Assembly: GCA_016789305.1 (NCBI GenBank)
Contig: JAEURJ010000002.1
Coordinates: forward strand, 248,001 to 312,000
Origin: Anaerolineales bacterium
Lineage (GTDB): Bacteria; Chloroflexota; Anaerolineae; Anaerolineales; Villigracilaceae
Direction: 5' to 3'
DNA length: 64,000 bases
The first letter of the stretch is position 1. Each line of letters begins with the position of its first letter. This document shows positions 592 through 16,381 of the stretch, in pieces. A program made the translations under genes and the position numbers. The notes beneath the pieces were generated by a model. The model saw nothing but the letters and a program-made list of their open reading frames with translations, had not been told where the DNA came from and made no database searches.

Positions 592-873
592 TTAGAGGGC
601 GTTTAATTTTTCATCGAGACGTTGGAGGACAAAACGTTGGGTCGCGTGCAAATAGTCGCGGTCGCGGACGCGGGTTTCCCAGACTTTGGTGATGTATAAC
701 CGCAGGCCTTCAAGATCGCCGCGGGTGGTGCAAATACGAATATAGGCATCCCATGCATCCACATTTTGCGGGTCGGCATGTAGAATTTGGTCAAGAATGG
801 TTTGTGCTTCACTGTACCGGTTTTTACCTATTAAATAATAGGCCTGATCCAGCAACTCCCATAATTTAGCCAT
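592..873 (-). CDS. Small helical (TPR-like) protein, paralogue of the downstream gene
   Basis: This 93-residue protein has an ATG preceded by AAGGAG seven bases upstream, which favours this start over a longer in-frame one. It is all helical, with one TPR-like hairpin around the DPQNVDAWDAY core. It is a diverged duplicate of the N-terminal 90 residues of the next gene (1-570) but has no membrane segment. It lies 21 bases upstream of that gene, so the pair looks like a tandem duplication inside the TPR operon. No family assignment is possible by eye. Confidence 0.75.
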   Translation of the reverse strand: MAKLWELLDQAYYLIGKNRYSEAQTILDQILHADPQNVDAWDAYIRICTTRGDLEGLRLYITKVWETRVRDRDYLHATQRFVLQRLDEKLNAL

Positions 874-1104
874 ATCGATACTCCTTGTATTGAATATATG
901 TCTATGATAGCCACATGGCTTCGAAAGTGCCACCTAAACAAGTTCCTGATTGGTATGCTCATTTTTGCCCCCTTAAAAGGGCATAAAAAGGGCACTTTTC
1001 GGCCCCCCTATGCCCGCCTAACACGAGCGGGCATAGATGTCAGGGCGATAAAACGGAGCCATATTGCGGCTCCGCTTTACTTACTGATGTTATAGATCGA
1101 TATG

Positions 1105-2592
1105 TTAGCCATTCGATGCATAAGCGGACAACAGGTGATGAAAGCGGTGATCTTTGCGAAGCGAATCGAGATCCGGATCAACTTGTGCCCAGTTGATGTA
1201 TGTCTGCTTGGCTTGCAGGGCAACTTCCAGTAATTCCAATGCGCGGTCGTTGTGGCCACAAATGGCTTCCAGGCAGGCGCGGTTGTATTCCGTCTCTTCC
1301 TCAAAATTTGTGTTCAACGCCTTGTCGATATGAGATTGGGCCAACTCGTCCAATCCCATTCTCAAGTAATGGCTGGCAAGCGAGGCATGTGCCTGGGCGT
1401 AATTGGGATCCAGTTCCAGCACCCTTTGAAATGCAGCCATCGCCTCCTCTTCGCGCCCTTCGATTGCATAGATCAAGCCGAGGCGATAGTAAAAGGATGG
1501 TTTGGTTGAATTGATCGAGATCGCGGTTTGAAATGCAAGGATCGCATCCTTGTATTTGCCCAGCGCCTTGTATGCATCGCCAAGCATCTCCCAGATCGAA
1601 TAATTTCTGGGATTGTTCTGCGAGGCGTACTTGTATTTGGCGATGTCCATCTCCAGCGAATTCCTCTCCGAATCGGAGAGCTCCATGAGCGGATATTCCA
1701 CCTGGGAATATTCCGCTGTTTCAGCCTCCGCACCGCTTAAGGTGACCGTATCGACCACTTCGGCAATGCTGCTGTTTTCATAGGAAATTTCTTCAGCTGG
1801 TTCATCATCGCCTTCCAAAAAGTCAACGGATTCCGGAAGGTTGGCTAATTCCGTCGGAAGTGAATCAGTTTCCAGTTCGCTTGATGCGATGATTTCCAGA
1901 TCGACAGGAACGATCAGTTCGAATTTTTCGAGAACATCATCGTCGATCTTGAATTCATCTTCAATTTGTGTCGCGAGTTCCGTTGAAGTCATGTCGTCGG
2001 TATAGGCCAGTCGCCACTCGCTTTGGATGCTGGAGATCGTCTCGTGCAGTGACTCGGTGGTCTGAAAATGGGGTTCGGGGTCCGGAGGTACGAATTCATT
2101 TTCAAACCATTGAATCTTGACTTCCTCTTCCGCAATTTCAAATTTGGCGTTGATATCCAGCATCTCGTCATCTTCGATGACTTCGCCCATATCAAGATCC
2201 GATATAACAAAGTCAATGTTGAAATCCGGCATGGACACAGTCAGTGGGAATTCCATATCCTCGATCTCTTGAGGAGAATACGCATGCCCCGAAGGCTGAC
2301 TTGTTTCCAGCGGGTGCTCGTTTTCCATGATCTGGCGGTAAAGGATGCCGAGTCTTGTCCTTGCGATCGCCTTTTCATTCTCATCCGGTAACAATGCAAT
2401 GCTTTGGCGATATAACTTGATTGCTTCTGTATATTTTCCAACTTTTACATAGGCCATCGCGAGGTTGGCATATGACCTGCCAAACCTGCCATCCAATTCA
2501 ATGGCCCGGAGATATGCGTGGATGGCAGGTTCGTATGCCTCATTCAGAAAATACAGATTGCCCAACTCGTTCCAATATTCATGGTTGCTCAT
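1105..2592 (-). CDS. TPR repeat protein with acidic linker
   Basis: This 495-residue, probably cytoplasmic protein has about three TPR motifs at the N-terminus (residues 1-105), an acidic low-complexity linker (about 110-310) and a second TPR block (about 315-470). The N-terminal block is the same three-TPR unit seen in the two upstream proteins: a W-N-E-L-G-N start, a middle Y-[SA]-N-L-A motif and a third repeat following an E-K-A/D-K-A signature. It begins 12 bases after the preceding TPR gene and belongs to the operon that starts at 8640. It has no enzymatic motif and is most likely a scaffold or adaptor. Confidence 0.85.
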   Translation of the reverse strand: MSNHEYWNELGNLYFLNEAYEPAIHAYLRAIELDGRFGRSYANLAMAYVKVGKYTEAIKLYRQSIALLPDENEKAIARTRLGILYRQIMENEHPLETSQPSGHAYSPQEIEDMEFPLTVSMPDFNIDFVISDLDMGEVIEDDEMLDINAKFEIAEEEVKIQWFENEFVPPDPEPHFQTTESLHETISSIQSEWRLAYTDDMTSTELATQIEDEFKIDDDVLEKFELIVPVDLEIIASSELETDSLPTELANLPESVDFLEGDDEPAEEISYENSSIAEVVDTVTLSGAEAETAEYSQVEYPLMELSDSERNSLEMDIAKYKYASQNNPRNYSIWEMLGDAYKALGKYKDAILAFQTAISINSTKPSFYYRLGLIYAIEGREEEAMAAFQRVLELDPNYAQAHASLASHYLRMGLDELAQSHIDKALNTNFEEETEYNRACLEAICGHNDRALELLEVALQAKQTYINWAQVDPDLDSLRKDHRFHHLLSAYASNG

Positions 2593-2604: not shown

Positions 2605-4674
2605 TTATGCAATATAGGCAGGCTTTTGCTCGTTGTAGATATTTCCCAGCAAACCGAAGTTTGAACGCAGCGATAAGGTCGCATTTTCAGGGTCGAGTTC
2701 GTCGGCTGTCTGGTAGGCGGCGATCGCATTGTCATAATCGTTCATGCGGCGATACACATTGCCCAATCGATTCCAGGTGACAGCCTTATCCTTGTCGGAT
2801 GTGAACAGTTCGATGCCGCGCTGATACAGGAGGATGGCTTCGGCAAAACGGCCTTTTTGAACATACGCGAGTGCGAGGTTGCTGTACGGCCACGCAAATT
2901 GACGATCCAATTCAAGCGCCTTGCCGTAGGATGCAATCGCATCATCGTAGGAACCTGCATTCAAATACACATTGCCCAGTTCATTCCAAACATGCGCATT
3001 CTTGGTATCCATCACGATACGCACTTCGCCATCGGCACTGACCTTGGTTACGGGCGCTTCGCTGATCTCGTCCACATGATCGGGCAGGATGCTTGTAGGT
3101 TCGATCACATCCTTGAGGTATTCTTCATAAGCGGCTTCCGTGATTTCGACTTCTTCCGCAGCGGCTGTCTCTTCTTCAATCACTGTTTCCTGCGTGAAGA
3201 CTTCTTCCACTTCCGCAACCGCTTCCAACTTAACCTCGGCCTGCTCGGCGATTTCTTCAACCACTTCTTCGCTGGCAACTGGTTCTTCACTCAAGGGAAC
3301 TGCCACAGGTTCGGTGAAGGTCTCAACGCTGTCCATGGTGACTACAGATTCGCTGATCGCCGCCTGTTGGGGAACATCCGAGATGGTGGTTACAGAGTCG
3401 GCCGAAAGGGTTTCATCCTCCAATTCAGCTGCCTTCAAAAGTTCTTCGCCCTCGGCAATCGCATTTTCGATCATCGCCTTGTCGTTGATGATCAGCCAGG
3501 ATGGGATGCGGGGAGCCTTGGCTTCAACGGCTTCTTCTTTTACAGGCGCGGCTTTTTCTTCACCGAATCCGGCGGCGGCTTCCACTTTTGCGATCACATC
3601 TTCAATGAGCTGCAACACGCTCGACTTGTGTTCCTGCGGCTCAACCACGGTTTCTTCCGCAACAGGCTCGGTGACAACTTCCACCGCTTCTTCCACTGCT
3701 GGCTCGACTGCAATTTCCGCAACTTCTTCCAAAACGGTTTCTGCGACAGGTTCAGCGACGGGTTCCGGTTCCTCTGCTGGAACTTCAACGGTTTCGGTTG
3801 CAACTTCTGCTGTGACTTCTGTGGTTTCTTCTGCAACGGCTTCGGTCACAATTTCGCTGGTTTCTTGTGAGTCGTTTTCGGCAACAGGCTCAACAATTTC
3901 TTCTATAACCGCTTCGGCTTTTGTTTCGATTGTTTCTTCAATGGCTTCTTCTTCAATGACCATTTCCATGTTGGGTGCCAAGGCGACGGGTTCCTCCATG
4001 AATTGCGCTTCAGCTTCCATCTCAGCGCCTTCTTCTGAATTGAGTTCACTTGCTGCCGCCTCAGCTTCCAGCTGTTGCTCCACGATCATTTGCTCCAGAA
4101 TTTCTTCAGGCGCGACAACGGTCATTGCAGGCGGGGTTTCATCCAGTTTGTCGTTGAAGCCGGTGTTCTCGCCGTCCAGTTCATCTGCGCGTTGAAACGC
4201 CAGGAATGCATTTTCGTAATCGTTGAGTTTGCGATATACATTTCCCAGACGATTCCACGAAATGGCCTTGTCTTTGTCTTCGGTGAGCAGGGCAATGCTG
4301 AGAGTGTAAAGCGGGATGGCTTCTTCATACTTGCCCAATGTGACCATGACAAGCGCAAGATTGCTGATCGGCCAGCCGGACTGCGGATCCAGGTTGATCG
4401 CTTTTTGATAGGAAACCGCTGCGCCTTCATATTCCCCGTTCTTGAATTGAGCGTCGCCAAGGTTGATCCAATTCTGGGCTGAGTCGGGGTCTATTTCCGC
4501 TGCATGCTTGTAAGCCTGCACAGCCTCATTGTGTTGATCCTGACGTTCAAAAACGTTGCCCAACCGAATCCACGGATTGATAAATTGGTTGTTAAACTCA
4601 ACATTCTTTTTCTGATAATTCAGGATCGCGTCAAAGATATTGCCAAGATCTTTCCAAAATTCGAATTCAGACAT
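2605..4674 (-). CDS. TPR repeat protein with long Glu/Ala/Val-rich linker
   Basis: This 689-residue protein has an ATG preceded by a strong GGAGG. Two TPR blocks, at the N-terminus (about residues 1-175) and C-terminus (about 565-680), flank a roughly 350-residue linker made almost only of E, V, A, P and T. The linker is probably disordered or extended and strongly acidic. Each TPR block carries the operon's repeated unit, ending in WNRLGNVYR-x-x-NDY. It sits 25 bases after the iSTAND/TPR gene. It has no catalytic motif. Two binding heads on a long flexible acidic tether suggest a bridging adaptor (inference). Confidence 0.85.
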   Translation of the reverse strand: MSEFEFWKDLGNIFDAILNYQKKNVEFNNQFINPWIRLGNVFERQDQHNEAVQAYKHAAEIDPDSAQNWINLGDAQFKNGEYEGAAVSYQKAINLDPQSGWPISNLALVMVTLGKYEEAIPLYTLSIALLTEDKDKAISWNRLGNVYRKLNDYENAFLAFQRADELDGENTGFNDKLDETPPAMTVVAPEEILEQMIVEQQLEAEAAASELNSEEGAEMEAEAQFMEEPVALAPNMEMVIEEEAIEETIETKAEAVIEEIVEPVAENDSQETSEIVTEAVAEETTEVTAEVATETVEVPAEEPEPVAEPVAETVLEEVAEIAVEPAVEEAVEVVTEPVAEETVVEPQEHKSSVLQLIEDVIAKVEAAAGFGEEKAAPVKEEAVEAKAPRIPSWLIINDKAMIENAIAEGEELLKAAELEDETLSADSVTTISDVPQQAAISESVVTMDSVETFTEPVAVPLSEEPVASEEVVEEIAEQAEVKLEAVAEVEEVFTQETVIEEETAAAEEVEITEAAYEEYLKDVIEPTSILPDHVDEISEAPVTKVSADGEVRIVMDTKNAHVWNELGNVYLNAGSYDDAIASYGKALELDRQFAWPYSNLALAYVQKGRFAEAILLYQRGIELFTSDKDKAVTWNRLGNVYRRMNDYDNAIAAYQTADELDPENATLSLRSNFGLLGNIYNEQKPAYIA

Positions 4675-4699: not shown

Positions 4700-7387
4700 C
4701 TAGCTTGCCACACAATTGCCAAGCAGGGTGAAACGAGCCCGTGTGAGTAAACTTGTTTTTTCATTGGACAGGATGACCGCGGTTTGATAGGCCTTCTGGG
4801 CATTGCTTTGGTCGTTCAATTTCCGATACACATTCCCAAGGCGATTCCACGAAGTTGCCTTTTCCTTGTCGGTGGTGAACAATTCGATGCTTTTCATATA
4901 GACAGGAATGGCTTCCTTGTACCTGCCTTGAAAAACCAATGACATTGCCATGTTGCTGTGCGCCCATCCGGAAGCAGGATCCATTTTGACCGCATTGGCG
5001 TAGGCTTCGGCGGCATCCGCATACGATGCAGACTTGAAGAATAGGTTGCCCAATTCCAGCCAGACTTGCGCATTGTGCGAGTTGGGTCCGGAAATGGACA
5101 TGTCGGCCCGGTCACGTTTACCGGTATTTTGAGGATCAAGCTCATCGGCCTTTTGATATGCATTCAAGGCATTCTCGTAATCGTTCAGATGACGATAGAT
5201 GTTGCCGAGACTGTTCCAGGAAGCTGCCTGTTCTTCTTTGTTCTCAAGCAGGCTGGCGCTTTTTTGGTATAGCAGAATTGCTTCCGGCAGTTTGCCCATT
5301 GTCAAGTAGGTGAGTGCCAGGTTGCTGTAGGGCCAGCCAAACGTACGATCCAGTTCGATGGCCTTGTTGTATGCGCTGATGGCATTGTCATAATCGCCAT
5401 TCTGGAAGTGGATGTTTCCCTTTTTATTCCAGACCTCGGGATTCTTTGTTTCGGCCATCTCTTCTTCATTTTCCATCAGGTCGGTGGGGAATTGACCTTC
5501 TAAAACGCCCGGTACAGAGATGGGCTCAAGGATGGTGTGTAGCACTTCGTTGGTTTTCATAGGCGGCTCCTCCGTCGGCTGCTTGTTGGGTTCTTCCTTC
5601 CAGAATAGACTTTCTGAATAGGTGGTGGATGTGGTATTGGTTTGATCCCAAACTTCTGGTTGCAGGATCCATGCCGGCATACTTTGTTTTTCCTGCGGAA
5701 TTTCTTCCGGGGTTGTCTGGGTGTTTTTTATCTCGGTAGTTGCAGTAAAAACTTCAGGTGCCGACTCTGCCAATTGTGCAGGAGCAGGCTCGGATGCGAC
5801 AGAAGCGGTTTGACGTCCTGTGATGATGCGTTTATTGAGTTTGTCTGCCATTTGGAAGGCCTGCAGCGCATTGTCGTAATCGTTGACCGCGCGATAGAAG
5901 TTTGCCAGCCGATCCAGTGCGATGGATTTGTCGTCATCATCGGTGAATAGGTCAAGGCTCTTTCTGCTTTCTTCGATGGCTTCCTGATATTTGCCCATGC
6001 CTGCATGCGCAAGTGCGAGATTGCTGTAGGCCCAACCAAAACTGCGGTCAAGTTCACTTGCTTTGGAGAAGGCTTGTGCGGCTTCCTCGTATGCATTGGT
6101 CTTGAGCAATACCGATCCCAATTCGTTCCAGATCTGATGATTTTTCGGATCGACCAGAAGGGCACGCTGATAGGTCTTGATCGCATCCTTGTTGCGGCTT
6201 TGTCTGCAATAAATATCTGCCAGCTTCAACCACGGTGTCACATAGTGTTTGTTGAGCTCTATCGCTTTTTGAAACGAAGCGATGGCATCGATATCGCGGC
6301 CGATGGTTGCATAAGAATCCCCAAGCCCAACCCAGGAAGCCGCAAGCGTGGGCGCGATCTCAATGGCCTTGCGGAAGGCACCAATCGAGTCGTCGATGTA
6401 GCCGATCCTGAAATACACGGTGCCGAGGCCATTCCATGCGATCGCATCTTTGGGATTGTGCTGCAATGCCTTTTGGAAGGCGAGCATGGCTTCATCATTT
6501 CGCATGATCTTCATGCACAGGTTGCCGAGGTTGTTCCACACGAATATCTGTTCGGGAGCGGTTTCGATGGCCTGTTTATAGGCATTGATGGCTTCATCGT
6601 TTTTGCCCTGGCTGAACTTGACCAGTGCCATCGCGTTGTAGCATTCGGCCTCGAACCAGTTGTCTTCCAATCGTATGGCGGCCTTGATGGCGTTTTCCAA
6701 AAGTTCATTCGCCTTTTCAAGGTCTCCCTTGCGCCAGTTGAGAATTCCCAACGTGAGCATGAGGTTCGCGCGCGTGGAGGTTGATTCTGCGTTCTCAGGC
6801 AACTCGGTCAGGAAGGCCTCGCGAAGGCTGATCTTTTCTTCGGTATCTTCGAATTGGTCGGTGTATTCACCGGTGCCCAGCCATGCAGATTCAACGGCAG
6901 TTTGCAAAATATGTTCGGGGTTGGGTGTGTCGGCAAATTCGATCACGCGCTGGCGAAATTCCCAAAAGTCGGGAGCAATGCTTGTTAGCTCGGAAAGGGT
7001 CTTTGGCGTTACCCAAAAGATCATGCGAATGTTTTTGTTGATCAGAACATCCTTGTGATGCCCCAACTTCTTAAACGCATCTTTTTGCCCGACATTTAAT
7101 CCGTCAATGAAAAAGATATGGCTGGCGGTAACAGGAAAATCCTGCAAAAAGGAAACAAGATTTAATTCCGGAGTCTCATCCATTTGGATGCGAACGATCT
7201 TCTGCCCCTGCTCGATCAAATAATTTTCCAGGGCGGTTTCAGCATCGGCGCGAACGAATTCCGAGTTGTACACAACCAGAAGCGCCGATGGACGGTTCCA
7301 TTGAATGGCAAGTTCGAGTTCCTTTACAACGATCTCCACTCGTTCATCAAATGTGTTCGATTGCCGAATGATGCCAGGATTGGTCAT
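4700..7387 (-). CDS. Inactive STAND-like (iSTAND) domain protein with extended TPR array
   Basis: This 895-residue protein starts at the ATG that overlaps the ATPase stop codon by four bases (ATGA), implying translational coupling; a longer upstream start was rejected for that reason. Residues about 10-165 form an alpha/beta domain that looks like a STAND/AAA NTPase core but has no Walker A glycine-lysine signature. It keeps a hydrophobic beta-strand ending FFIDGLN and the motif FWEFRQRVIEF. A paralogous domain occurs in the 12989-14338 protein. From about residue 190 onward there are many TPRs, including three copies of a roughly 105-residue three-TPR unit, interrupted by a polar linker near 545-640. 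It is probably a non-hydrolysing partner of the upstream ATPase. Confidence 0.85.
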   Translation of the reverse strand: MTNPGIIRQSNTFDERVEIVVKELELAIQWNRPSALLVVYNSEFVRADAETALENYLIEQGQKIVRIQMDETPELNLVSFLQDFPVTASHIFFIDGLNVGQKDAFKKLGHHKDVLINKNIRMIFWVTPKTLSELTSIAPDFWEFRQRVIEFADTPNPEHILQTAVESAWLGTGEYTDQFEDTEEKISLREAFLTELPENAESTSTRANLMLTLGILNWRKGDLEKANELLENAIKAAIRLEDNWFEAECYNAMALVKFSQGKNDEAINAYKQAIETAPEQIFVWNNLGNLCMKIMRNDEAMLAFQKALQHNPKDAIAWNGLGTVYFRIGYIDDSIGAFRKAIEIAPTLAASWVGLGDSYATIGRDIDAIASFQKAIELNKHYVTPWLKLADIYCRQSRNKDAIKTYQRALLVDPKNHQIWNELGSVLLKTNAYEEAAQAFSKASELDRSFGWAYSNLALAHAGMGKYQEAIEESRKSLDLFTDDDDKSIALDRLANFYRAVNDYDNALQAFQMADKLNKRIITGRQTASVASEPAPAQLAESAPEVFTATTEIKNTQTTPEEIPQEKQSMPAWILQPEVWDQTNTTSTTYSESLFWKEEPNKQPTEEPPMKTNEVLHTILEPISVPGVLEGQFPTDLMENEEEMAETKNPEVWNKKGNIHFQNGDYDNAISAYNKAIELDRTFGWPYSNLALTYLTMGKLPEAILLYQKSASLLENKEEQAASWNSLGNIYRHLNDYENALNAYQKADELDPQNTGKRDRADMSISGPNSHNAQVWLELGNLFFKSASYADAAEAYANAVKMDPASGWAHSNMAMSLVFQGRYKEAIPVYMKSIELFTTDKEKATSWNRLGNVYRKLNDQSNAQKAYQTAVILSNEKTSLLTRARFTLLGNCVAS

Positions 7388-8640
7388 AGCATTTTCCTTA
7401 ACACAGGATGTACGTCGCACCAATTTTCCTGATCGCGGTATTCAAGGATGGCAAGCAACTGCATCAATGGGCGCAAACGGTCGCTGAACTCAAGTCGTTT
7501 GCTTTCCATGATCTTTTTCAAGAGTTTGATGTCTTCCTTATCGAGAATGCGCCTGTATTCATTGCGAATTTCGGTGACGGCCCATTCGACATCTTCAATT
7601 TCCAGCTGGGCTGCTTTTCGACGTCGCGCGCGCCCGATCGAGGTGCGGATGATGCGCGCCAGTTCGCGGAATACGCCGCCACTGTAGGTGATCGCCTCTT
7701 CCAAAGCCGACGCATGGATCAGCGCAGGAGACATTCTCACCCCGACGAATTTTTCCAAAGTGCGATAGCCTTCCTTCAATTGTTGCTCGGCATCGGTTGC
7801 GGTCCGCAGGTTGATGTTGGGCAGAAAGAGCGCCTGGTCTCGAATGGCATCGAATTCCTTGCTGTAAAACAATGCACTGGATACGGTGTAGACGATGGCA
7901 CAGTTGGGCTGCATCATGATCTCCCTGCGGTCATGGAAGATGGCACGGGCGCGATCCAGGTCTGGCTTGTCCATATCATCGATCAGGATCAGGGGAATGC
8001 GGCGTTCCTGATTGTAGATCGCGGCTGCGATGTGATTGATGATGGCGATCAAACCGGTGATGTCCGTTTCAACGATCTGGCGTAATTCCACGCGGGTGGC
8101 TGGTTCCAATTTCATCTTGAGGCCAGCGTGTGCGAAAAAGGCATCGATCGATGCGCCAAGCTCATATTCCGAAACTCGCCCGTCCAGGATGGTGGAGATT
8201 TGCTTTTCCACTTTGCCTTTCCAGCCGTTTAGTTCCTTGAGCAGCTGGTCGGGAAGTTCCCCGCCTTTTTTGCGATATTCGCGGAAGAGGCGGCTGCCAA
8301 TGGCCAGCAATACATCGCGGTAATCGAGGTCAATGATGTCGGTCTCTTCACGGATGCTGAAGTTGATCGGCCAGTATTTTTTCTGGATGTCGGCATTGCT
8401 CAGCAGATGTAACAGTTCTGTGGATTTTCCGCACCCGCGATGACCCGAGAAGAAGAACTTGGGAGGGCGGTAGAACGGGGCAAGCAGAGCGTCGATCAAT
8501 TCATTGATTGGGTTGCCGGGACGATTGATATAGAACGGATTGGTTTTTCCGTTTGGTCCGGGTTTGAGGGGCAGGTCCAGCTCGAAGTTCATCCATGCCC
8601 TGTCAAAATCAGTTGCTTTCAGATAATCAAAACTGTTCAT
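7384..8640 (-). CDS. AAA/ORC-like P-loop ATPase
   Basis: This 418-residue ATPase has Walker A GHRGCGKST (residues 66-74), Walker B PLILIDDMDK (about 215-225), a sensor-like segment IVYTVSS, and a helical bundle followed by a winged-helix-like C-terminus with EDVEWAVTEI. This layout fits the AAA, ORC/Cdc6- or STAND-related ATPases. It is the first gene of the TPR operon, and its stop overlaps the start of the iSTAND/TPR gene. The intergenic region upstream contains a perfect 16-bp palindrome. It is likely the only active NTPase of the operon; its substrate is unknown. Confidence 0.85.
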   Translation of the reverse strand: MNSFDYLKATDFDRAWMNFELDLPLKPGPNGKTNPFYINRPGNPINELIDALLAPFYRPPKFFFSGHRGCGKSTELLHLLSNADIQKKYWPINFSIREETDIIDLDYRDVLLAIGSRLFREYRKKGGELPDQLLKELNGWKGKVEKQISTILDGRVSEYELGASIDAFFAHAGLKMKLEPATRVELRQIVETDITGLIAIINHIAAAIYNQERRIPLILIDDMDKPDLDRARAIFHDRREIMMQPNCAIVYTVSSALFYSKEFDAIRDQALFLPNINLRTATDAEQQLKEGYRTLEKFVGVRMSPALIHASALEEAITYSGGVFRELARIIRTSIGRARRRKAAQLEIEDVEWAVTEIRNEYRRILDKEDIKLLKKIMESKRLEFSDRLRPLMQLLAILEYRDQENWCDVHPVLRKML

Positions 8641-8727: not shown

Positions 8728-8770
8728 ATTGACCATATCGGTTGGGCATCTTTGGTCAATATTGACCATC
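8728..8770. promoter_or_regulatory. Candidate operator upstream of the ATPase/TPR operon
   Basis: A perfect 16-bp palindrome, TGGTCAATATTGACCA, lies at 8754-8769. A further copy of the half-site TATTGACCAT lies at 8728-8737, 33 bases from the identical decamer at 8761-8770. The cluster is in the 150-base gap between the regulator gene (ending 8791) and the ATPase start (8640), about 90-130 bases upstream of that start. Repeated palindromic half-sites suggest binding of a dimeric regulator. A hairpin acting as a terminator for the regulator gene is possible but there is no T-run. Confidence 0.55.
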
Positions 8771-8790: not shown

Positions 8791-9450
8791 CTAGTTAACT
8801 GCCGTGGTCAGTCCCTCGCGGATGGCATACAATGCAGCCTGCGTTCGATTGGCGAGATGTAGTTTGTTCAAGACGCTGCTCACATACTTCGCGATCGTTC
8901 TTTCGTTGACCACCAGTGTGCTGGCGATTTCCTGATTGCTCAAACCGCGTGCGATCAACTTGAGCGTTTCCAGTTCGCGGCGGGTGAGATGATCGTTGCT
9001 GGAGAGCGTGCTGGTTGTGACCGGGCGGCTGTCAAAATCCTTGATCACCTGCATGGCGATGGATGGATGGATGGATGCCTGCCCACTGGCAACCTCACGA
9101 ACCGCCTTGAGGAGTTCGGCTCGCGGAGTATCTTTGAGCATGTATCCCAGGGCCCCTGTTTTGATGGCCTGATACACACGGTTGCTTTCCGCAAAGCTGG
9201 AAAGTACGAGAATGCGAAACTTCTCGGAAATATCCTTCAACTTCGGTATGGTTGTCAGCCCATCCTGCAGTGGCATGACCATATCCAACAGGATCACATC
9301 CGGTTTGGTTTTGCGGGCGAGTTGTACGGCCTCGATCCCATTTTCCGCCTCGCCGACCACTTCCATGTCAGCTTGCAGCGATAGAATGGCAGCCATTCCT
9401 TCACGGACTACGTTTTGATCATCGACAACGAGAATGCGGATTTTGTTCAT
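8791..9450 (-). CDS. NarL/FixJ-family response regulator (receiver + LuxR HTH)
   Basis: This 219-residue two-component regulator has an N-terminal receiver domain with the acidic pair VVDD (residues 8-11), phospho-acceptor Asp56 in VILLDMVMP, and conserved switch Ser and Lys. The C-terminal LuxR-type helix-turn-helix (about 150-215) contains LTRRELETLKLIARGLSNQE and a VNERTIAKYVSSVL recognition helix. It is closely paralogous to the regulator at 10198-10848. No kinase gene adjoins it. It lies 47 bases downstream of the MraZ-like gene and may be co-transcribed with it. Its targets are unknown; the palindrome at 8754 is a plausible one. Confidence 0.95.
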   Translation of the reverse strand: MNKIRILVVDDQNVVREGMAAILSLQADMEVVGEAENGIEAVQLARKTKPDVILLDMVMPLQDGLTTIPKLKDISEKFRILVLSSFAESNRVYQAIKTGALGYMLKDTPRAELLKAVREVASGQASIHPSIAMQVIKDFDSRPVTTSTLSSNDHLTRRELETLKLIARGLSNQEIASTLVVNERTIAKYVSSVLNKLHLANRTQAALYAIREGLTTAVN

Positions 9451-9497: not shown

Positions 9498-9947
9498 TTA
9501 GATTGCCTTGGAATGTAGAGAGATGCTAAAAGATGAAAATCTTCCTGCGTTTGCCTGTACGTCCTGAAGTTGCGCTTCCTGCTCCGCCCAGTGGCTGGGT
9601 GACCAAACCTCAAGATATTCACCCTGTCCGACGATGACCACTTTGCCTTTCAAGTTTGCGTATTCCATCAGGCTTTGTGGCACCGAAATGGGTTCGCCTT
9701 CATCGACCTCCAGATAATTTGCCGAGCCCAGGAACATTCGCAGCAACAAGCGGGCCAGGGGATCGGTAATGTTGAGAGAGGATATGCTTTCGTATATCTC
9801 TTGAAACGTTTCCGCTGTGAGTACCAGCAGGTTTTGATCGAACCCTTGCGTAAGGTAGATACCGCCGGAGATCAGCTTTCTCCAGTTGGAGGGGAGAGAG
9901 AGGCGGTTCGAACTTTTCAACTGGGTGGTGTGATGTCCAAGGAACAA
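9498..9947 (-). CDS. MraZ-like transcriptional regulator, outside a dcw cluster
   Basis: This 149-residue protein starts at a TTG with GGAG seven bases upstream. That start gives the typical MraZ N-terminus (MFLGHH-x-T-x-L-x-x-x-x-R-L-x-L-P). Two SpoVT/AbrB-like beta-strand blocks follow, the second with VDEGEPISVPQSL and V-x-I-V-G-Q-G-x-x-x-E-V-W, as in MraZ. MraZ is normally the first gene of the division/cell-wall cluster, in front of rsmH. Here it stands alone between two NarL-type regulators, so it is probably a diverged paralogue with a different regulon. Confidence 0.85.
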   Translation of the reverse strand: MFLGHHTTQLKSSNRLSLPSNWRKLISGGIYLTQGFDQNLLVLTAETFQEIYESISSLNITDPLARLLLRMFLGSANYLEVDEGEPISVPQSLMEYANLKGKVVIVGQGEYLEVWSPSHWAEQEAQLQDVQANAGRFSSFSISLHSKAI

Positions 9948-10022: not shown

Positions 10023-10135
10023 TCCTCAAAACTGGTGTTTGCCCCATGCCAAAAGATGTCCGTTCGCGAAGGCGTAATGGATAAAAATGACCATGTCTTT
10101 TTGCCCGGGGGAATGCACTCTTTATCCTGATCGTT

Positions 10136-10174
10136 AAATAAAAAATGACAGCGCATAAATGGCGCTGTCATTTG
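10136..10174 (-). terminator. Rho-independent terminator after the second response regulator
   Basis: Read on the minus strand, the inverted repeat TGACAGCGC / GCGCTGTCA with a short loop is followed by TTTTTTATTT. It lies 24-60 bases after the stop of the 10198-10848 gene and closes that five-gene operon. Confidence 0.85.
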
Positions 10175-10197: not shown

Positions 10198-10848
10198 CTA
10201 TTTTTTTGGTTCTGCCAGACCTTCGCGGATTGCATATAAAGCAGCCTGGGTGCGGTTGGCAAGATGCAGTTTTTCCAAAATGCTGCTTACATATTTCGCA
10301 ACGGTTCTTTCATGTACCACCAAAGTGGTGGCGATCTCCTGATTGCTCAACCCGCGTGCAATTAACTTAAGAGTTTCCAGTTCGCGCGGAGTTAGTGGGT
10401 CTGCGGTATACATCAACTCTGCGGGGTGATCAATTTCATTGATCACTTTCATGGCGATGGCCGGTTGAATCGACGCCTGTCCGTTTGCAACGTCACGAAT
10501 GGCTTGCATCAGTTGCACTCTTGTTGCATCCTTTAAGAGAAAGCCAAGCGCGCCGGCTTTGATACTCTGATAGACCCGGTCGCTCTCTGCAAAACTGGTC
10601 AGCACCAAAATACGCGACTTGGGTGAAACCTCTTTTAGCTTTGGGATGCTTTCCAGTCCGTTCTGTTTTGGCATGTGCATATCCAGAAGGACCACATCCG
10701 GCTTGGTTTGTTTCGCGATTTCAACAGCCTTGATGCCGTCTTCTGCTTCACCGACCACTTTCATGTCTGTTTGAAAGGAAAGGATGGCCACCACTCCATC
10801 CCGAACCACGCTTTCATCATCCACAACTAAAATCCGAATTGGCTTCAT
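10198..10848 (-). CDS. NarL/FixJ-family response regulator, partner of adjacent kinase
   Basis: This 216-residue regulator has a receiver domain (VVDD at 8-11, phospho-acceptor Asp56 in VVLLDMHMP) and a C-terminal LuxR-type HTH (LTPRELETLKLIARGLSNQE). It begins five bases after the histidine kinase stop codon and is its obvious cognate regulator. It resembles the 8791-9450 regulator along its whole length, with near-identical HTH recognition helices, so both may read overlapping DNA sites. It is the last gene of the operon; a strong terminator follows. Confidence 0.95.
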   Translation of the reverse strand: MKPIRILVVDDESVVRDGVVAILSFQTDMKVVGEAEDGIKAVEIAKQTKPDVVLLDMHMPKQNGLESIPKLKEVSPKSRILVLTSFAESDRVYQSIKAGALGFLLKDATRVQLMQAIRDVANGQASIQPAIAMKVINEIDHPAELMYTADPLTPRELETLKLIARGLSNQEIATTLVVHERTVAKYVSSILEKLHLANRTQAALYAIREGLAEPKK

Positions 10849-10853
10849 TGTTC

Positions 10854-12992
10854 CTAACCCTTTCTGCTCACAGTGACGGAAATTTTTGTTCCCTGGTCAA
10901 CTTTTGAGGTGATCTTGAATTTTCCATTGACCTGTAACGCGCGCTCTCTCATATTTTTCAACCCCAGGCCTGCATTATCGATTTTCTTTATATCAAAACC
11001 AACGCCATCATCGAGGATTTCAAGCATTACATTTTGGCGGGTTTGCTTTAAGTTAACAGATACTTTTCGCGCATGAGCATGGCGCAGGATATTGTTTAGG
11101 GCTTCCTGGGCGATGTAATACAGGGCGATTTCTGTATCTTTTGCCAACTGGATATTTTCGTCTGCGATCAGCCCGGCTTTGATGTCCGCCCGGCCTTCCA
11201 CAGCGGCCAGGCGATGATGAAGCGATGAAACCAGCCCGTCCTTGAGGTCAATGGGCTGCATTTCATATAGGAACAAACGCATTTCTTTGACGGCCTGCCT
11301 GGCGTTTTCGCCGATGCGAGTCAATACTTGCAAAGGGGCGATCTGCGATCCTGCTTCGATCCCGGCTTGTGCAGCCTCTGTCAGCGCGACCAACCCGTAT
11401 AATTTTTGGCTGACCGAATCGTGCAGATCGCGCAGGAGGCGCTGCCGTTCCGAAAGGGCAATCGCAAACTGCCTGCGACGATTGCTGTCGATCAGTGTGG
11501 CAATCTGATTGGCAATGGTAGTGAGACGGATCACTTCATCCTGTGTGTAAGGGTTGTTATCGCTTCGCCCCAGGCATAAACAGCCCAATACCGTATTTTC
11601 ATGCTGTGTATAGATTACCAAAGGAATCATTACTGCCGAGTCCAGGTCGATGTTTTTTAGATTCGATGGAATCCGTTCAAATTCTCGAAAATTATTAATG
11701 ACCAATGGTCTGTTTTCTTCGTTACCGATCAGCAGGTTGTAGATGATCGAAGAGGTGACCTCGCTGGTAATGACTTTCATATGCTCTGGCGGTAAACCAA
11801 AGTGCGATATTAATGACAGCTTTTGCCGGCCGTCGTCCTCTGTTTCCTTGGTGAGAAAAATGGCGGCTGCCTGGCTGTTGAATGAATACAGGATCTGATA
11901 AATGGAATCGGACAGAAATTCATCCATGTTCATTGAGCGGCTGGCTGTACTTGAAATTGCGTTCAAGAGTACGAACAATTCGTCGCGTGCCTGTTGACGG
12001 GCGTCGTCGGCAAGTTTGCGCTGTGTGATATCGCGCCAAACGATCAGGTGTCCAAAATCCCCGTTGACTTTGTCTGTCAATTGAGAAATGCGGATGTTTA
12101 AATATCGCCAGTCATTTTGCGCCTTTACGCTACGGCGCATTTCCATTTCTTTTATTCCCTCGGAGGACCTTATTAATTTGGGCCAATCATTCAAAATGTG
12201 ATCCACCGGCTCGCCATAGATGTTTTCACGAGACATGCCGATCATTTTTTCGGCCGCTGAATTCATATCGATGACATGATCCTGATGATCAACGACCATC
12301 CAGCCGTCGTCCATGCCCTCCACAACGATTTCACGTGTAATGGGTGAGGCCTCAATTAAATGGGTGTTGAATTTCCCGTAGGAAATTCCAGCCACCGCCA
12401 TCGAATAGCAGAGGATGGAAATAAAAAAGCCGGTTTCAAGGTTGTTTACAAAGAAAATAATGATGGTGCCCACTAAAGGGAAGATCGCCCCCAAAAGAAT
12501 GGTCCCTGCCTTAAAAAAATGCACGCGTGGTTTTTGAACAAAGGTATCCAGTAAAAAGATGATGCTTCCGGCCAAAAGATGCAGCGTGTAGAGAAGGTTT
12601 AAGCGGTTCAGGATATCTATTTCGGAGGGGAGGAAAGTTCTCCTAAGACTTTCCGCCCAAAATAACATTTGAATGATCGCAGGTTCGATTAAAAAAATGA
12701 ATATCGTGAACTGATTGATCCAACGCGAACGATTCGCATAGTCCAATGCAAAGTAGAGTTGAAATGTTGCAGCCAATGCCAGGCAGAGATAGCTAACAGC
12801 TTTTAGAACATCCTTCGGGATATGAAGCGCGGGAATTTGGTATAGCAGATATGTCATTGCCCAAACCGCCAGACTGATGATCAGGCCGGAAAGGGGCACC
12901 GTGCCGGAAGCTCTTTTGCGCAACAGTAATATTAATCCCGCTGAGAGAGCGATCACGATGGTGAGGAGAAGGTTGGGCAGGTCTGGTTTCAT
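10854..12992 (-). CDS. 7TM-PAS-GAF sensor histidine kinase (HisKA_3)
   Basis: This 712-residue membrane sensor has about seven N-terminal transmembrane helices (residues 5-215, the histidine-kinase 7TM type), a PAS domain (about 220-335), a GAF domain (about 345-500), a HisKA_3 dimerisation helix with phospho-acceptor His524 in RDLHDSVSQKL, and an HATPase_c domain with EALNNILRHAHA and DDGVGFD / GLGLKNMRERA. This is the NarX/LiaS class that pairs with NarL-type regulators. Its start overlaps the preceding gene by four bases (ATGA), and the regulator follows by five bases. Translational coupling to the iSTAND/TPR gene suggests these proteins work in one pathway. Confidence 0.93.
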   Translation of the reverse strand: MKPDLPNLLLTIVIALSAGLILLLRKRASGTVPLSGLIISLAVWAMTYLLYQIPALHIPKDVLKAVSYLCLALAATFQLYFALDYANRSRWINQFTIFIFLIEPAIIQMLFWAESLRRTFLPSEIDILNRLNLLYTLHLLAGSIIFLLDTFVQKPRVHFFKAGTILLGAIFPLVGTIIIFFVNNLETGFFISILCYSMAVAGISYGKFNTHLIEASPITREIVVEGMDDGWMVVDHQDHVIDMNSAAEKMIGMSRENIYGEPVDHILNDWPKLIRSSEGIKEMEMRRSVKAQNDWRYLNIRISQLTDKVNGDFGHLIVWRDITQRKLADDARQQARDELFVLLNAISSTASRSMNMDEFLSDSIYQILYSFNSQAAAIFLTKETEDDGRQKLSLISHFGLPPEHMKVITSEVTSSIIYNLLIGNEENRPLVINNFREFERIPSNLKNIDLDSAVMIPLVIYTQHENTVLGCLCLGRSDNNPYTQDEVIRLTTIANQIATLIDSNRRRQFAIALSERQRLLRDLHDSVSQKLYGLVALTEAAQAGIEAGSQIAPLQVLTRIGENARQAVKEMRLFLYEMQPIDLKDGLVSSLHHRLAAVEGRADIKAGLIADENIQLAKDTEIALYYIAQEALNNILRHAHARKVSVNLKQTRQNVMLEILDDGVGFDIKKIDNAGLGLKNMRERALQVNGKFKITSKVDQGTKISVTVSRKG

Positions 12993-14338
12993 GATTCGTC
13001 AATGTCCATCAAATTCTGTTCTTCCAGAAGGGCATGCAGATTGGGGTCCCGCATGATTTGATGCCTGTTTATTATGTTGGTTTTCAGCGCTGCGCCTAGA
13101 CCATCAAGAGCAGCCTCGATATTACCAGATAGCAGGATTCCACAGGTTTTTTGAAGGATATTCTTCTCAACTGCACTTTTCTCCAGTTTTTCGAGCAGCG
13201 CAGCGGATTCTTCGGGCTGGTTGTTTTTTGAGTAACAAACTGCCAGGGAATAAAGTGTGTCGAGACTGTTTGTGTCTTTTTCAATTGCTTTTTCCATGGT
13301 ATCAACAGCATCCTGGGTCCTTCCCATCGAAAGATATAACAGCCCGAGGACATGCCATAAATGGGAATTACCAGCGTCGATTTTGGTGGCTCGATTGGCT
13401 GCGAGAATCGCCTCCCTGTTCTTTCCGATTCCATGCGCTGCAATGCAGGAGTTAATCATAAAAATGCTGTTATTGGGCTCTATGGCAAGGGCCTGATCAA
13501 AGCAGGCTCTTGCTCCCTGCCTGTCACCATCTTCAAAGGATTTTATTCCCTTAATGTTAAGGATCCAGCCGCTGTATTGGTGATTTGATTGTGATTTGAC
13601 AGCAGCAAGTGCATTGTTAAAATGCTTTGAAAAATCTTCAAGCGTATTCAATTGCCAGGTGAGATGAAGCAGCTTCAGGGTCATGCCGAGGCGGGTTGTT
13701 GTTGCATCCTCACTGTCAGGTAATTGGGAAAGTAAATTTTCGTAGTACTCAATCTGCTTTTTTTGCGCCGGGATATCCATCCATGAGAGCTGTTCTTTCC
13801 AAAGAAAAAGCCCGGTTGGAACGGAGGGGCTTCTAGGGCCGCGTTTGGGTGCGAACTCAATAACACGATGGCGGAAGGCCCAAAAATCCGGTGCCAGGCG
13901 GGGTAAATTTGCTGCCTCTGCTTCAGTTAACCAAAATACAGCACAAATTTTTTGTTCCACAAGAATTTCACGATGAATATTCAATGCCCGATAAACATCG
14001 CCGTTTGGTGATATTTGATTGGCATGTTCCAGTCCTGAAATGAAAAAAACGGTCTTTTCGTGGTTTGAAGTTGAATAGGCGGTACGGATCACATCTGTGT
14101 TTGTGTTATCCGGCTTGATATATTGGACTTTTTGTTTTGTTTTTGCCAGTTTTTTTTCAAGAAACTGCTGCGCAATCAATTGGCCGCCCGGGGTATTGTG
14201 AATTGCCAGGAGTATGCTGGGTCTGTGCCATTGAAAGGCAAGTTGTATTTCGTCGTAGAGGCTGTTTATTCCCTCTGCAAATCCTTTACTGTAGGAATTT
14301 TTCCGTTTTTTTGATACTTTGTTGTTTGTTTTTCTCAT
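12989..14338 (-). CDS. Inactive STAND-like (iSTAND) domain protein with TPRs
   Basis: This 449-residue protein has an N-terminal alpha/beta domain (about 15-170) that parallels the one in the 4700-7387 protein: AFQWHRPSILLAIHNTPGG where a P-loop would be, then VFFISGLEHA, AVFWLTEAEA and FWAFRHRVIEF. No Walker lysine is present, so NTP hydrolysis is unlikely. Residues about 200-430 are TPRs. It lies 18 bases after the Mrr-like gene and overlaps the kinase gene by four bases. Sitting between a nuclease-fold protein and a two-component pair, it is probably an adaptor or sensor that links them (inference). Confidence 0.85.
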   Translation of the reverse strand: MRKTNNKVSKKRKNSYSKGFAEGINSLYDEIQLAFQWHRPSILLAIHNTPGGQLIAQQFLEKKLAKTKQKVQYIKPDNTNTDVIRTAYSTSNHEKTVFFISGLEHANQISPNGDVYRALNIHREILVEQKICAVFWLTEAEAANLPRLAPDFWAFRHRVIEFAPKRGPRSPSVPTGLFLWKEQLSWMDIPAQKKQIEYYENLLSQLPDSEDATTTRLGMTLKLLHLTWQLNTLEDFSKHFNNALAAVKSQSNHQYSGWILNIKGIKSFEDGDRQGARACFDQALAIEPNNSIFMINSCIAAHGIGKNREAILAANRATKIDAGNSHLWHVLGLLYLSMGRTQDAVDTMEKAIEKDTNSLDTLYSLAVCYSKNNQPEESAALLEKLEKSAVEKNILQKTCGILLSGNIEAALDGLGAALKTNIINRHQIMRDPNLHALLEEQNLMDIDES

Positions 14339-14356
14339 TTTTGTTCTCGAGTACTT

Positions 14357-15208
14357 CTATTCAAGACCCGATAAAAAATGAATGGGCTTTAATGGCAATA
14401 AATAACGGGCTTTCTGATCGATCAATTCATAATATTGTTTCCAAAGATCAAAAAAGGCGGGAGCGTCAAGCGCAGTCAGTCTTTGAAAACTGTTTGAGTG
14501 CAATTCCTGCATGGCGTCATTGGTGAAACCGCTCATGGAAACAATCATGCCGTAATCGTTTGGATTTATGGCCGAAAGAAAGCTTTTAATCCCCTCAAGC
14601 GTGACGGCCTGCCCTTTGTGTTTGATCTGGGCCATGATGCGCTGGCCCTTGGCTCCAATCGGATCTGAAAACGCGATCAGGTTGATCTGACCGCGTTGTT
14701 TTTCAGCGGGTGCCATCCATGAAGGATAGTATTCCATTGCACGAAGAAGCTCTGCCAGCATGAGTTGAAGTTCGCTTGGACTTAATTGATGCAGATGTTT
14801 TTCGATCTGCGCCCATGCGGTTTCCTGGGCAATCTCCATTTCCATAACGCTTTCCGGGGCCACACGCCTGCGGATGTTGTAGATGCGGACTGCCTCAGTG
14901 TAAAAGTCCTGTACATTCGTAAATTTTCTACAGGCCTGGTAGCCATCTTCGGTTATATACCAACGCCCTTTTTCGTTTTTTATGAGCCAGCCGGCGTGGG
15001 TAAAGGGAATCGTGGAGATCCGTATGATCTTCTCATAACGGGGGGTGTTCGTCTCAGGAGAAAGTTTAAGTTCTTCTTCTGTTAATTTTGCAAAATCTGG
15101 GATAAGAGCTAATACTTCTTTTGCGGTCAGGCCTTCGGGTTTGTCCCACAGAATTTCAAAGACACTGCGCAACAACTCGCCTGCTCGTTTCATTGTTATA
15201 TTTGACAT
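14357..15208 (-). CDS. Mrr-like restriction-endonuclease-fold protein
   Basis: This 283-residue protein has an N-terminal winged-helix region like Mrr_N (about 1-95, with GRWYITEDGYQA) and a C-terminal Mrr_cat-like domain (about 140-270). In the catalytic domain the Q-x-K element is present (Gln194-Ile-Lys196, in MAQIKHKGQ), and the downstream segment DYGMIVSMSGFTNDAMQE matches the family. The usual GVDLI aspartate position reads QINLI, with Asn176 in place of Asp; Asp182 nearby might compensate. It could therefore be a weak or dead nuclease used for DNA binding. It is the second gene of the operon, 18 bases before the iSTAND gene. Confidence 0.8.
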   Translation of the reverse strand: MSNITMKRAGELLRSVFEILWDKPEGLTAKEVLALIPDFAKLTEEELKLSPETNTPRYEKIIRISTIPFTHAGWLIKNEKGRWYITEDGYQACRKFTNVQDFYTEAVRIYNIRRRVAPESVMEMEIAQETAWAQIEKHLHQLSPSELQLMLAELLRAMEYYPSWMAPAEKQRGQINLIAFSDPIGAKGQRIMAQIKHKGQAVTLEGIKSFLSAINPNDYGMIVSMSGFTNDAMQELHSNSFQRLTALDAPAFFDLWKQYYELIDQKARYLLPLKPIHFLSGLE

Positions 15209-15251
15209 TGACAGGGTCCTGAGTGTGTAAAGCGATTACACGGATGATAAA

Positions 15252-15764
15252 TTATAAAGTGTTCAGGCCTTGTTGTCGACGCGTCAGGCGAATGTATTGT
15301 TCGACCATTTCCTTGGGATGGGGGCGGGTGCCCAATACGACCAGATATCCGGGCGCCCAAAAATCATTGGATAGATTCTCTTCCTTGATCCGTCCAAAAT
15401 TCGACATGATCAATGCAGACGTATCGTAACGGATTTGCTGCATAAATCTACCGGGGGGGGTGGCAGGCAAAACTGAGATGGACCATTGGAAGTAATTTGG
15501 ATCGATGTTTACAAATTCTAAACGCCAGCCAAAGGAGATGCAGATTTGTTGCAACCATTGCGGCAGGAAATCTGCGAGGTCGCCTTTTAATTGATGTGAA
15601 GGGAAACGGGGGATAAGAAGGCAGGTATAACTTAAGTCGTAAGATTCGGAATGAACGGGCTCTAATAAAACCCCTTCTTTCAACGATGTTTCTTGACTTT
15701 CATCCGTTTGAAAGAATGAGAACGAGTGCGTGGTTTTTACATCGACGCGATCAGAGGAATCCAT
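15252..15764 (-). CDS. Degenerate Y1 (IS200-type) transposase-like protein
   Basis: This 170-residue protein has its ATG at 15762-15764 with GAGGG nine bases upstream; an upstream in-frame start lacks a ribosome site. Residues 41-160 align along their length with the intact transposase at 27625-28035. The HUH pair (His53/His55 there) is replaced by Tyr91 and Gln93, while the helix with the nucleophilic tyrosine remains (Tyr157 in EMVEQYI). It lacks both metal-binding histidines and so should not cut DNA. A roughly 40-residue extra N-terminus is present. It is the first gene of a five-gene unit with the Mrr-like, iSTAND, kinase and regulator genes, which points to a domesticated DNA- or RNA-hairpin-binding role. 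Confidence 0.7.
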   Translation of the reverse strand: MDSSDRVDVKTTHSFSFFQTDESQETSLKEGVLLEPVHSESYDLSYTCLLIPRFPSHQLKGDLADFLPQWLQQICISFGWRLEFVNIDPNYFQWSISVLPATPPGRFMQQIRYDTSALIMSNFGRIKEENLSNDFWAPGYLVVLGTRPHPKEMVEQYIRLTRRQQGLNTL

Positions 15765-16060
15765 TAGTGTAGACCCTCTTGATTGGAGCAGGCAAAACGT
15801 ACGACTCTTAACATTTTTTGGGAGACCTTTCTGCATTATACCCTGTAAGGGGATTTTTTACCTCCCCGTTTTGAGTTTGCAAAATTGTTATGTGCGGTTT
15901 TTGTACCAAAATACTCAAAATAATCAAGGTTTCTTGACAGACAACGGATGGAACAGCGGAAAATGTTGACACGAAATAACAATGCCGGTTTGGACAGAAT
16001 CAGAATATCCTTCACTCGTTGAAAAGTATTTGCCCCTTTTGTATGCTCCAAGGAATTTAA

Positions 16061-16381
16061 ATGAGCAAAAAAGTTGTATTTAATGGCATTGAGATATTTG
16101 CTTCTGAAGATGATCAATCCGCCCAAAGCCTGCTTGGTTTTGTAGAGAATATCATCACGCGCCTTGAAGCCAGCTTAAATGGCACAGATGGGAATTTTAA
16201 TATTTCGATCGACACAAACTTTTTCCCAAATAAGGCGACAAAATACAATATCACCATCAATGGGAACATGGATCAGAAGACCAGGGATAAGGTAATGAAA
16301 ATCCTGCAGAAATCCGCCGAGACGAAGGATGCACGAATTACAGGAAGCATAAAAGTGGACTTGCAAATTCGAGACGTTTAG
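16061..16381 (+). CDS. Hypothetical small protein
   Basis: This 106-residue soluble protein is not recognised. Its ATG follows AAGGAA by five bases. It has a short N-terminal beta element, a central helix (LLGFVENIITRLEASL), an Asn-rich stretch (NISIDTNFFPNKATKYNITI) and a C-terminal strand. There is no signal peptide or membrane segment. It stands alone on the plus strand, diverging from the 15764 operon, with its own terminator just downstream. Confidence 0.65.
   Translation: MSKKVVFNGIEIFASEDDQSAQSLLGFVENIITRLEASLNGTDGNFNISIDTNFFPNKATKYNITINGNMDQKTRDKVMKILQKSAETKDARITGSIKVDLQIRDV

Follow-up and report, generated by a model that had tools for sequence, protein, structure and literature searches.

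A 64,000-nucleotide stretch of Anaerolineales DNA (hereafter the window; coordinates are window positions, and parts of the locus lie on the minus strand unless stated otherwise) carries a tightly packed five-gene unit at 15764-10198. Its genes encode an IS200-transposase-like protein (Y1), an Mrr-like protein (Mrr), a protein with tetratricopeptide repeats (TPRs; gene 3), a sensor histidine kinase and a NarL-type response regulator (NarL1). We propose, with a probability of roughly 40%, that the locus encodes a two-component circuit leading from NarL1 to mraZ and headed by two domesticated, probably DNA-binding accessory proteins, Y1 and Mrr. Each part is of a known kind: a domesticated transposase, a worn restriction-endonuclease (REase) fold and a two-component pair. 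The five-gene unit was described in an original prediction with gaps of 43, 18, -4 and 5 bases between its genes, and an open reading frame (ORF) check bore out both its place and its spacing. The larger locus, the polA-linked parent gene of Y1 and the link between operator and mraZ, all described below, were absent from that prediction.

The operon is bounded by a conserved -10 box (TATAAT, 15835..15840), which is also found upstream of several orthologous Y1 genes, and by an intrinsic terminator with a 12-bp stem 3′ of the regulator gene (10143..10173). The start of Y1 at 15764 is right, because the ATG of the longer ORF overlaps with this box (15840-15835); Y1 orthologues also align from this start. 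Pfam was run on nine locus proteins. Y1 (15252..15764, 170 aa) was assigned to Y1_Tnp (1e-12) and Mrr (14357..15208, 283 aa) to Mrr_cat (1.7e-11) and Mrr_N (1.9e-7), and the remaining three operon genes gave TPRs for gene 3 (12989..14338, 449 aa), a 7TM-PAS-GAF-HisKA_3-HATPase architecture for the kinase (10854..12992) and REC-GerE for NarL1 (10198..10848). The kinase carries His524 and the N and G boxes. The hallmarks of a NarX/NarL-type pair, namely the HisKA_3 histidine and HATPase domain on one side and the REC aspartate and GerE domain on the other, were all found. Judged by these residues, both proteins look intact, in agreement with their earlier description as an ordinary kinase-regulator pair, and the membrane-anchored kinase would signal to NarL1 in the usual way.

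Conservation of the neighbouring genes had been set beforehand as the test on which the idea of a functional unit could fail. The genes were found to be kept together: the full five-gene order, with nothing inserted, is present in 14 further genomes (loci L041, L043, L044, L045, L047, L048, L049, L051, L052, L054, L055, L057, L062 and L065), where L051 and L055 end at contig ends and L065 carries a 370-aa Y1 protein. In relatives, which comprise the same genus and other genera of one Anaerolineales family, the recurring order is Y1, Mrr, gene 3, kinase, NarL1, mraZ, NarL2, ATPase and TPR genes. The conserved unit therefore exceeds the five genes, and in the window it extends to ~592. It includes a MraZ paralogue (9498..9947, the genome's second mraZ), a second response regulator, NarL2 (8791..9450), that is missing from some forms of the locus, and a 418-aa P-loop ATPase with Walker A and B motifs (7384..8640), which is the most conserved gene of the locus. 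These are followed by a 907-aa TPR protein (4700..7423), two further TPR proteins (2605..4674 and 1105..2592) and a small protein at the 3′ end (592..933) that also occurs in L041 and L046.

Y1 and the kinase are linked in 19 genomes. Among 150 family genomes, Mrr was detected in 33, the ATPase in 51 and both in 28 (p 9e-12, with shared ancestry ignored). Within the genus, the co-occurrence table of Mrr versus ATPase reads 15/1/1/38 (p 2e-11, likewise ignoring shared ancestry), and in the single Mrr-only genome the contig ends in NarL1. A single-protein database scan with Mrr matched 8 Anaerolineales/Chloroflexi metagenome-assembled genomes. The named carriers are Anaerolineales or Chloroflexi metagenome assemblies, and their isolate names indicate groundwater and lakes. 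Mrr is missing in L050 and L056, and in three loci Y1 and Mrr are separated by an extra gene of ~440 aa, seen in the gene listing for L037 and L066 and judged from the gap for L038. This insert (L037 7103-8449, L066 10236-11537) has no Pfam family and occurs in one sublineage; the L037 copy looks membrane-bound.

A possible output of the circuit is indicated by a palindrome, TGGTCAN4TGACCA, upstream of the locus mraZ and ATPase genes, which is clearest in other genera as TGGTCATNNATGACCA. In the window, an imperfect copy lies upstream of mraZ (10078..10093) and a perfect copy, TGGTCAATATTGACCA, between NarL2 and the ATPase gene (8753..8768). When ~667 kb of locus DNA was scanned with at most two mismatches, 24 sites preceded mraZ and 12 preceded the ATPase gene; the same scan of shuffled DNA gave 25 sites in total, at any position. 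The genome has two perfect sites, the one at 8753-8768 and one elsewhere. The latter lies just 3′ of the end of a glgC-like ORF (G000:C24:688273-688288; L135 ~4274). A site with a single mismatch was found 162 nt upstream of the division-operon mraZ of the window's genome. The region 100-200 nt before the division mraZ was then compared in 86 genomes. With up to three mismatches, a site was present in 11/46 genomes with the locus and in 0/40 without it (p 6e-4; the number of mismatches allowed had not been set in advance, and relatedness makes the genomes non-independent). In the same genus the counts were 7/16 and 0/25, and a limit of two mismatches gave 6/46 and 0/40 (p 0.03). A half-site comparison within the genus points the same way (11/16 versus 2/25), in part through shared ancestry. 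The sequence comparisons speak with moderate strength for control of the locus's own mraZ/ATPase unit, and in some species also of the division operon, by a regulator encoded in the locus, NarL1 being the most likely one. NarL1 probably binds the conserved site ahead of the neighbouring mraZ and of the ATPase gene; in a subset of genomes it would also bind the degenerate copy before the division-operon mraZ. Through such binding, the circuit would tune division or the synthesis of the cell wall.

It is also conceivable, though unlikely, that MraZ itself rather than NarL1 binds the operator and that the site serves mraZ autoregulation. The operator is found at a similar distance (~130-165 nt) ahead of both mraZ genes, and no complete form of the locus lacks MraZ, as this explanation would lead one to expect. 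Known MraZ boxes, on the other hand, are direct repeats of TGGGN, and no tandem TGGGN boxes were found in 36 mraZ upstream regions. The 16-bp palindrome is of the kind that dimeric GerE-type regulators use. Moreover, genomes without the locus have the division mraZ and yet the site is missing.

The fold of the first protein of the operon is well preserved. The AlphaFold model of Y1 has a core pLDDT of ~95 and matches the TnpA transposases of ISDra2 and IS608 (2fyx, TM 0.82), and a profile search against PDB returned IS200 transposases (2ec2 at 3e-11). The two histidines of the HUH motif are replaced by Y91 and Q93, in keeping with the predicted absence of HUH histidines. Among 42 homologues, the first position is Tyr in 39 and the second is Gln in 35, and both histidines are present in none (0/42). 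The position of the Gln metal ligand is occupied by T161 in the window and mostly by Thr, Ile or Ser across homologues. The nucleophile Tyr157 is kept in the window but is replaced by Phe in 10 and by Ser in 1 of the 42. Trp94 and Arg162, in turn, are invariant (42/42). Solo Y1 genes show a dN/dS of ~0.09-0.26. The view of Y1 as catalytically dead but structurally conserved is thus strongly borne out by the retained fold, the lack of both histidines and the purifying selection. Short inverted repeats are found in the vicinity of the Y1 gene, none of them clearly REP-like.

Solo Y1 proteins form one clade (support 99/97) that adjoins long Y1 proteins also found beside Mrr. A third group is set apart in the tree; its members, ~550 aa long, carry the Y1 domain at the C-terminus and weakly resemble a receiver at the N-terminus. 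Of 150 family genomes, 143 gave a Y1 match, for the most part in a frame of the ~550-aa type, and in 10/10 loci examined, including those of two genomes from a second family, the ~550-aa gene is followed by polA and a TPR gene. The polA-linked loci are L031 4100-9692 (G000:C12), where an FGE-like gene intervenes in G000, and L032-L036, L039, L040, L061, L115 and L116. In the polA-linked protein, Pfam detected just Y1_Tnp and, weakly, a receiver domain (3.4e-5 at best). A likeness of its middle part to roadblock/LC7 was considered and dropped, as Pfam gave no support. Elsewhere in the phylum sample, weak Y1 matches alone were found, and in the one case looked at, HUH is present together with a tnpB partner. 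In the window's genome, Y1 homologues occupy two places; the synteny is fixed, and there is no tnpB partner. Y1 derives from the near-universal polA-adjacent protein. In view of this origin, the invariant residues and the low dN/dS, Y1 is an old domesticated domain under new constraints and not a relic. A transposase homologue without catalytic histidines could, in principle, be an insertion sequence in decay that happens to lie next to an unrelated operon, but this weak argument is opposed by orthologues in the same place in many species, the intact frame, the low dN/dS and the new invariant residues, as well as by the single-clade origin, the missing tnpB partner and the two homologous places in the genome. 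The orthologues refute this reading, which the original prediction had named as an alternative, and it has practically no chance of being correct. Extra solo Y1 copies were seen in G092, two of them, equally oriented, close to the locus 5′ end (L057 2551-4179) and a third beyond its 3′ end (L046 8980-9528).

In the Mrr protein, the loss of catalytic residues is less uniform. An Mrr_N winged helix and an Mrr_cat fold were recognized in 18/18 members tested, and 6/18 matched NA-iREase1, the NACHT-associated inactive REase family. The window protein carries N176 at the position of the catalytic Asp, as had been noted earlier, and retains Q194 and K196. Among 25 Y1-linked orthologues, the D-QxK motif is incomplete in 18 and intact in 7. 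On the Mrr tree, at least 6 changes are needed in the Asp column and 9 in that of Lys. Residue loss in Mrr, as read from the alignment, is repeated, uneven and incomplete, and the locus is kept either way. The cluster Mrr genes show a dN/dS of ~0.05-0.18. The description as dead but structurally conserved holds only in part for Mrr, as it does not extend to the 7/25 copies that keep D-QxK. In both the Mrr and the Y1 tree, the kinase-linked proteins are split from those of loci where Mrr and a long Y1 protein are neighbours. This separation of the same groups in both trees suggests that Y1 and Mrr travelled together as a pair. The two proteins descend by domestication from an IS200-type transposase and from a restriction enzyme. 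They have probably lost cleavage chemistry, Y1 throughout and Mrr in most orthologues, while purifying selection was retained.

The third gene had been described as encoding a STAND-like domain without a P-loop. Its N-terminal 165 residues are predicted to form an alpha/beta domain with a topology compatible with STAND, and no P-loop was found in the protein, so that this part of the description stands. The likeness to STAND could not be confirmed by profile and fold searches. An hhalign comparison with the locus ATPase yielded no match, and Pfam and PDB profiles agreed on none; a profile search returned a single match to a chain named OT3 (E 2e-4), and the Foldseek matches concerned mainly the TPR half. 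The designation iSTAND remains a lead, because no search tied the domain to STAND proteins. Many orthologues lack the TPR half and consist only of the N-terminal domain (156-172 aa), and the 907-aa TPR protein starts with a paralogue of the domain.

These features raise the question of an inactive-STAND-type defence or conflict system, in which Mrr would be the nuclease effector, Y1 the sensor of invaders and the kinase pair the control. The relationship to NA-iREase1, the P-loop-less domain with TPRs and the P-loop ATPase in the locus fit such a system, and inactive STAND modules are viewed as nucleic-acid sensors (PMC8195603). The iSTAND ternary conflict systems likewise combine a P-loop-less domain and repeats in a multi-gene locus. 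However, neither MoxR nor vWA was found among the nine locus proteins scanned, STAND homology was not matched, and a histidine kinase pair is present instead; in the survey of Kaur et al., the vWA-associated effectors included no histidine kinases (PMC7159879). A PADLOC scan of the locus showed just TPR, PrimPol and PDC-S02 resemblance. Gene order is constant across species, unlike that of variable defence islands. We consider a defence function very unlikely.

In the circuit we favour, Y1 and Mrr would form a pair that probably binds DNA or single-stranded DNA, with the gene-3 protein as a scaffold, and that would alter kinase or regulator activity according to DNA state. Fold, linkage and ancestry point in this direction. 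As to the sensing assembly originally predicted, its report to a two-component pathway is supported at the level of genomic linkage, recognition of DNA structure or ends is suggested by the folds, and the necessity of the assembly was overstated, since there are kinase loci that have neither Y1 nor Mrr. A more specific version, a DNA-to-division checkpoint assembled from mobile-element and defence components, in which the Y1 fold and the disabled Mrr fold read DNA state and the output adjusts the division operon via mraZ, seems decidedly unlikely at present.

Several observations weigh against the proposed circuit. In other genera, at least seven contiguous kinase loci lack Y1 and Mrr (L082, L083, L098, L100, L101, L108 and L110), and one of the two is missing in L050, L056 and L064. 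The 7/25 Mrr copies with a complete motif could, by their residues, still cut. The division-mraZ site is absent in 35/46 locus-bearing genomes, and outside the genus its distribution (4/30 versus 0/15) is not significant. No operator copy was found upstream of the five-gene operon, and the binder of the operator may be MraZ or another factor. Because the kinase locus occurs without one or both, neither Y1 nor Mrr is needed for the circuit; they would be modulators and not core parts. For the same reason, their action on the kinase is the weakest step of the proposal.

It might also be that Y1 and Mrr are an independent pair for DNA maintenance or against mobile elements that shares the kinase promoter without taking part in signalling, which we regard as somewhat unlikely. 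In other genera, Mrr has a long Y1 protein as its neighbour and no kinase locus is nearby (L068, L069, L077, L079 and L080), the parent Y1 protein adjoins polA, and Mrr matches the candidate defence family PDC-S02 (1.8e-24), while a canonical relative matches type IV mREase. The tight spacing and the co-occurrence with the kinase locus in the genus speak for a closer connection, and the loss of catalytic residues in most Mrr and all Y1 proteins is unsuited to an effector pair.

The locus differs from each known system that it resembles. Y1 shares fold and homology with the TnpA of IS200/IS605 elements (IS608, ISDra2), but it lacks HUH in 42/42 homologues, has lost the Gln ligand, carries Phe for Tyr in 10, has no tnpB and shows no sign of mobility. 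REP-associated TnpA (RAYT) proteins are also domesticated; RAYT and TnpA classes are defined by HuH and Y motifs (PMC6006769). TldR, a nuclease-dead TnpB regulator, is likewise an inactivated IS200/IS605 protein linked to host genes (PMC13418256), but it stems from TnpB and uses a guide RNA, whereas Y1 stems from TnpA and has no known RNA. Mrr shares Mrr_N and Mrr_cat with type IV restriction enzymes, from which it departs, by sequence, in the incomplete D-QxK of the window and most Y1-linked copies. Compared with NA-iREase1, its operon partners are Y1 and a kinase and not a NACHT protein. The circuit itself is most reminiscent of MtrAB-mraZ (and of CenKR and NtrYX), where two-component pairs act on division or envelope genes; MtrAB controls mraZ, which MtrA directly represses (PMC9602371), and mraZ is the probable target here. 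The present locus differs in its NarL-type regulator, its dedicated mraZ paralogue, its Y1, Mrr and TPR accessories and its occurrence in Chloroflexota. In the literature, for which coverage of subscription journals was incomplete, we found no HUH-less Y1 family, no kinase/Y1/Mrr operon, no Anaerolineae MraZ circuit, and no description of the operator TGGTCAN4TGACCA or of this combination of parts.

Upstream of Y1, a divergent gene on the plus strand (16061..16381) encodes a conserved 106-aa protein without a Pfam family, which is present in at least 8 other genomes (L041, L044, L045, L048, L049, L051, L054 and L057). Further away, at 23842-27283, an overlapping minus-strand pair consists of a nuclease-like ORF, whose IECK motif looks intact, and a UvrD-like helicase; read by eye, it is possibly a defence or repair pair.

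If our reading is true, a TnpA lineage without HUH is near-universal in this family and has been kept for a non-cutting role, in parallel to the dead TnpB proteins known as TldR. A TnpA-derived domain adjacent to polA would later have been spun off into a kinase operon. To our knowledge, there is little work on division control in Chloroflexota. The operator would give the circuit a testable output, namely mraZ and division.

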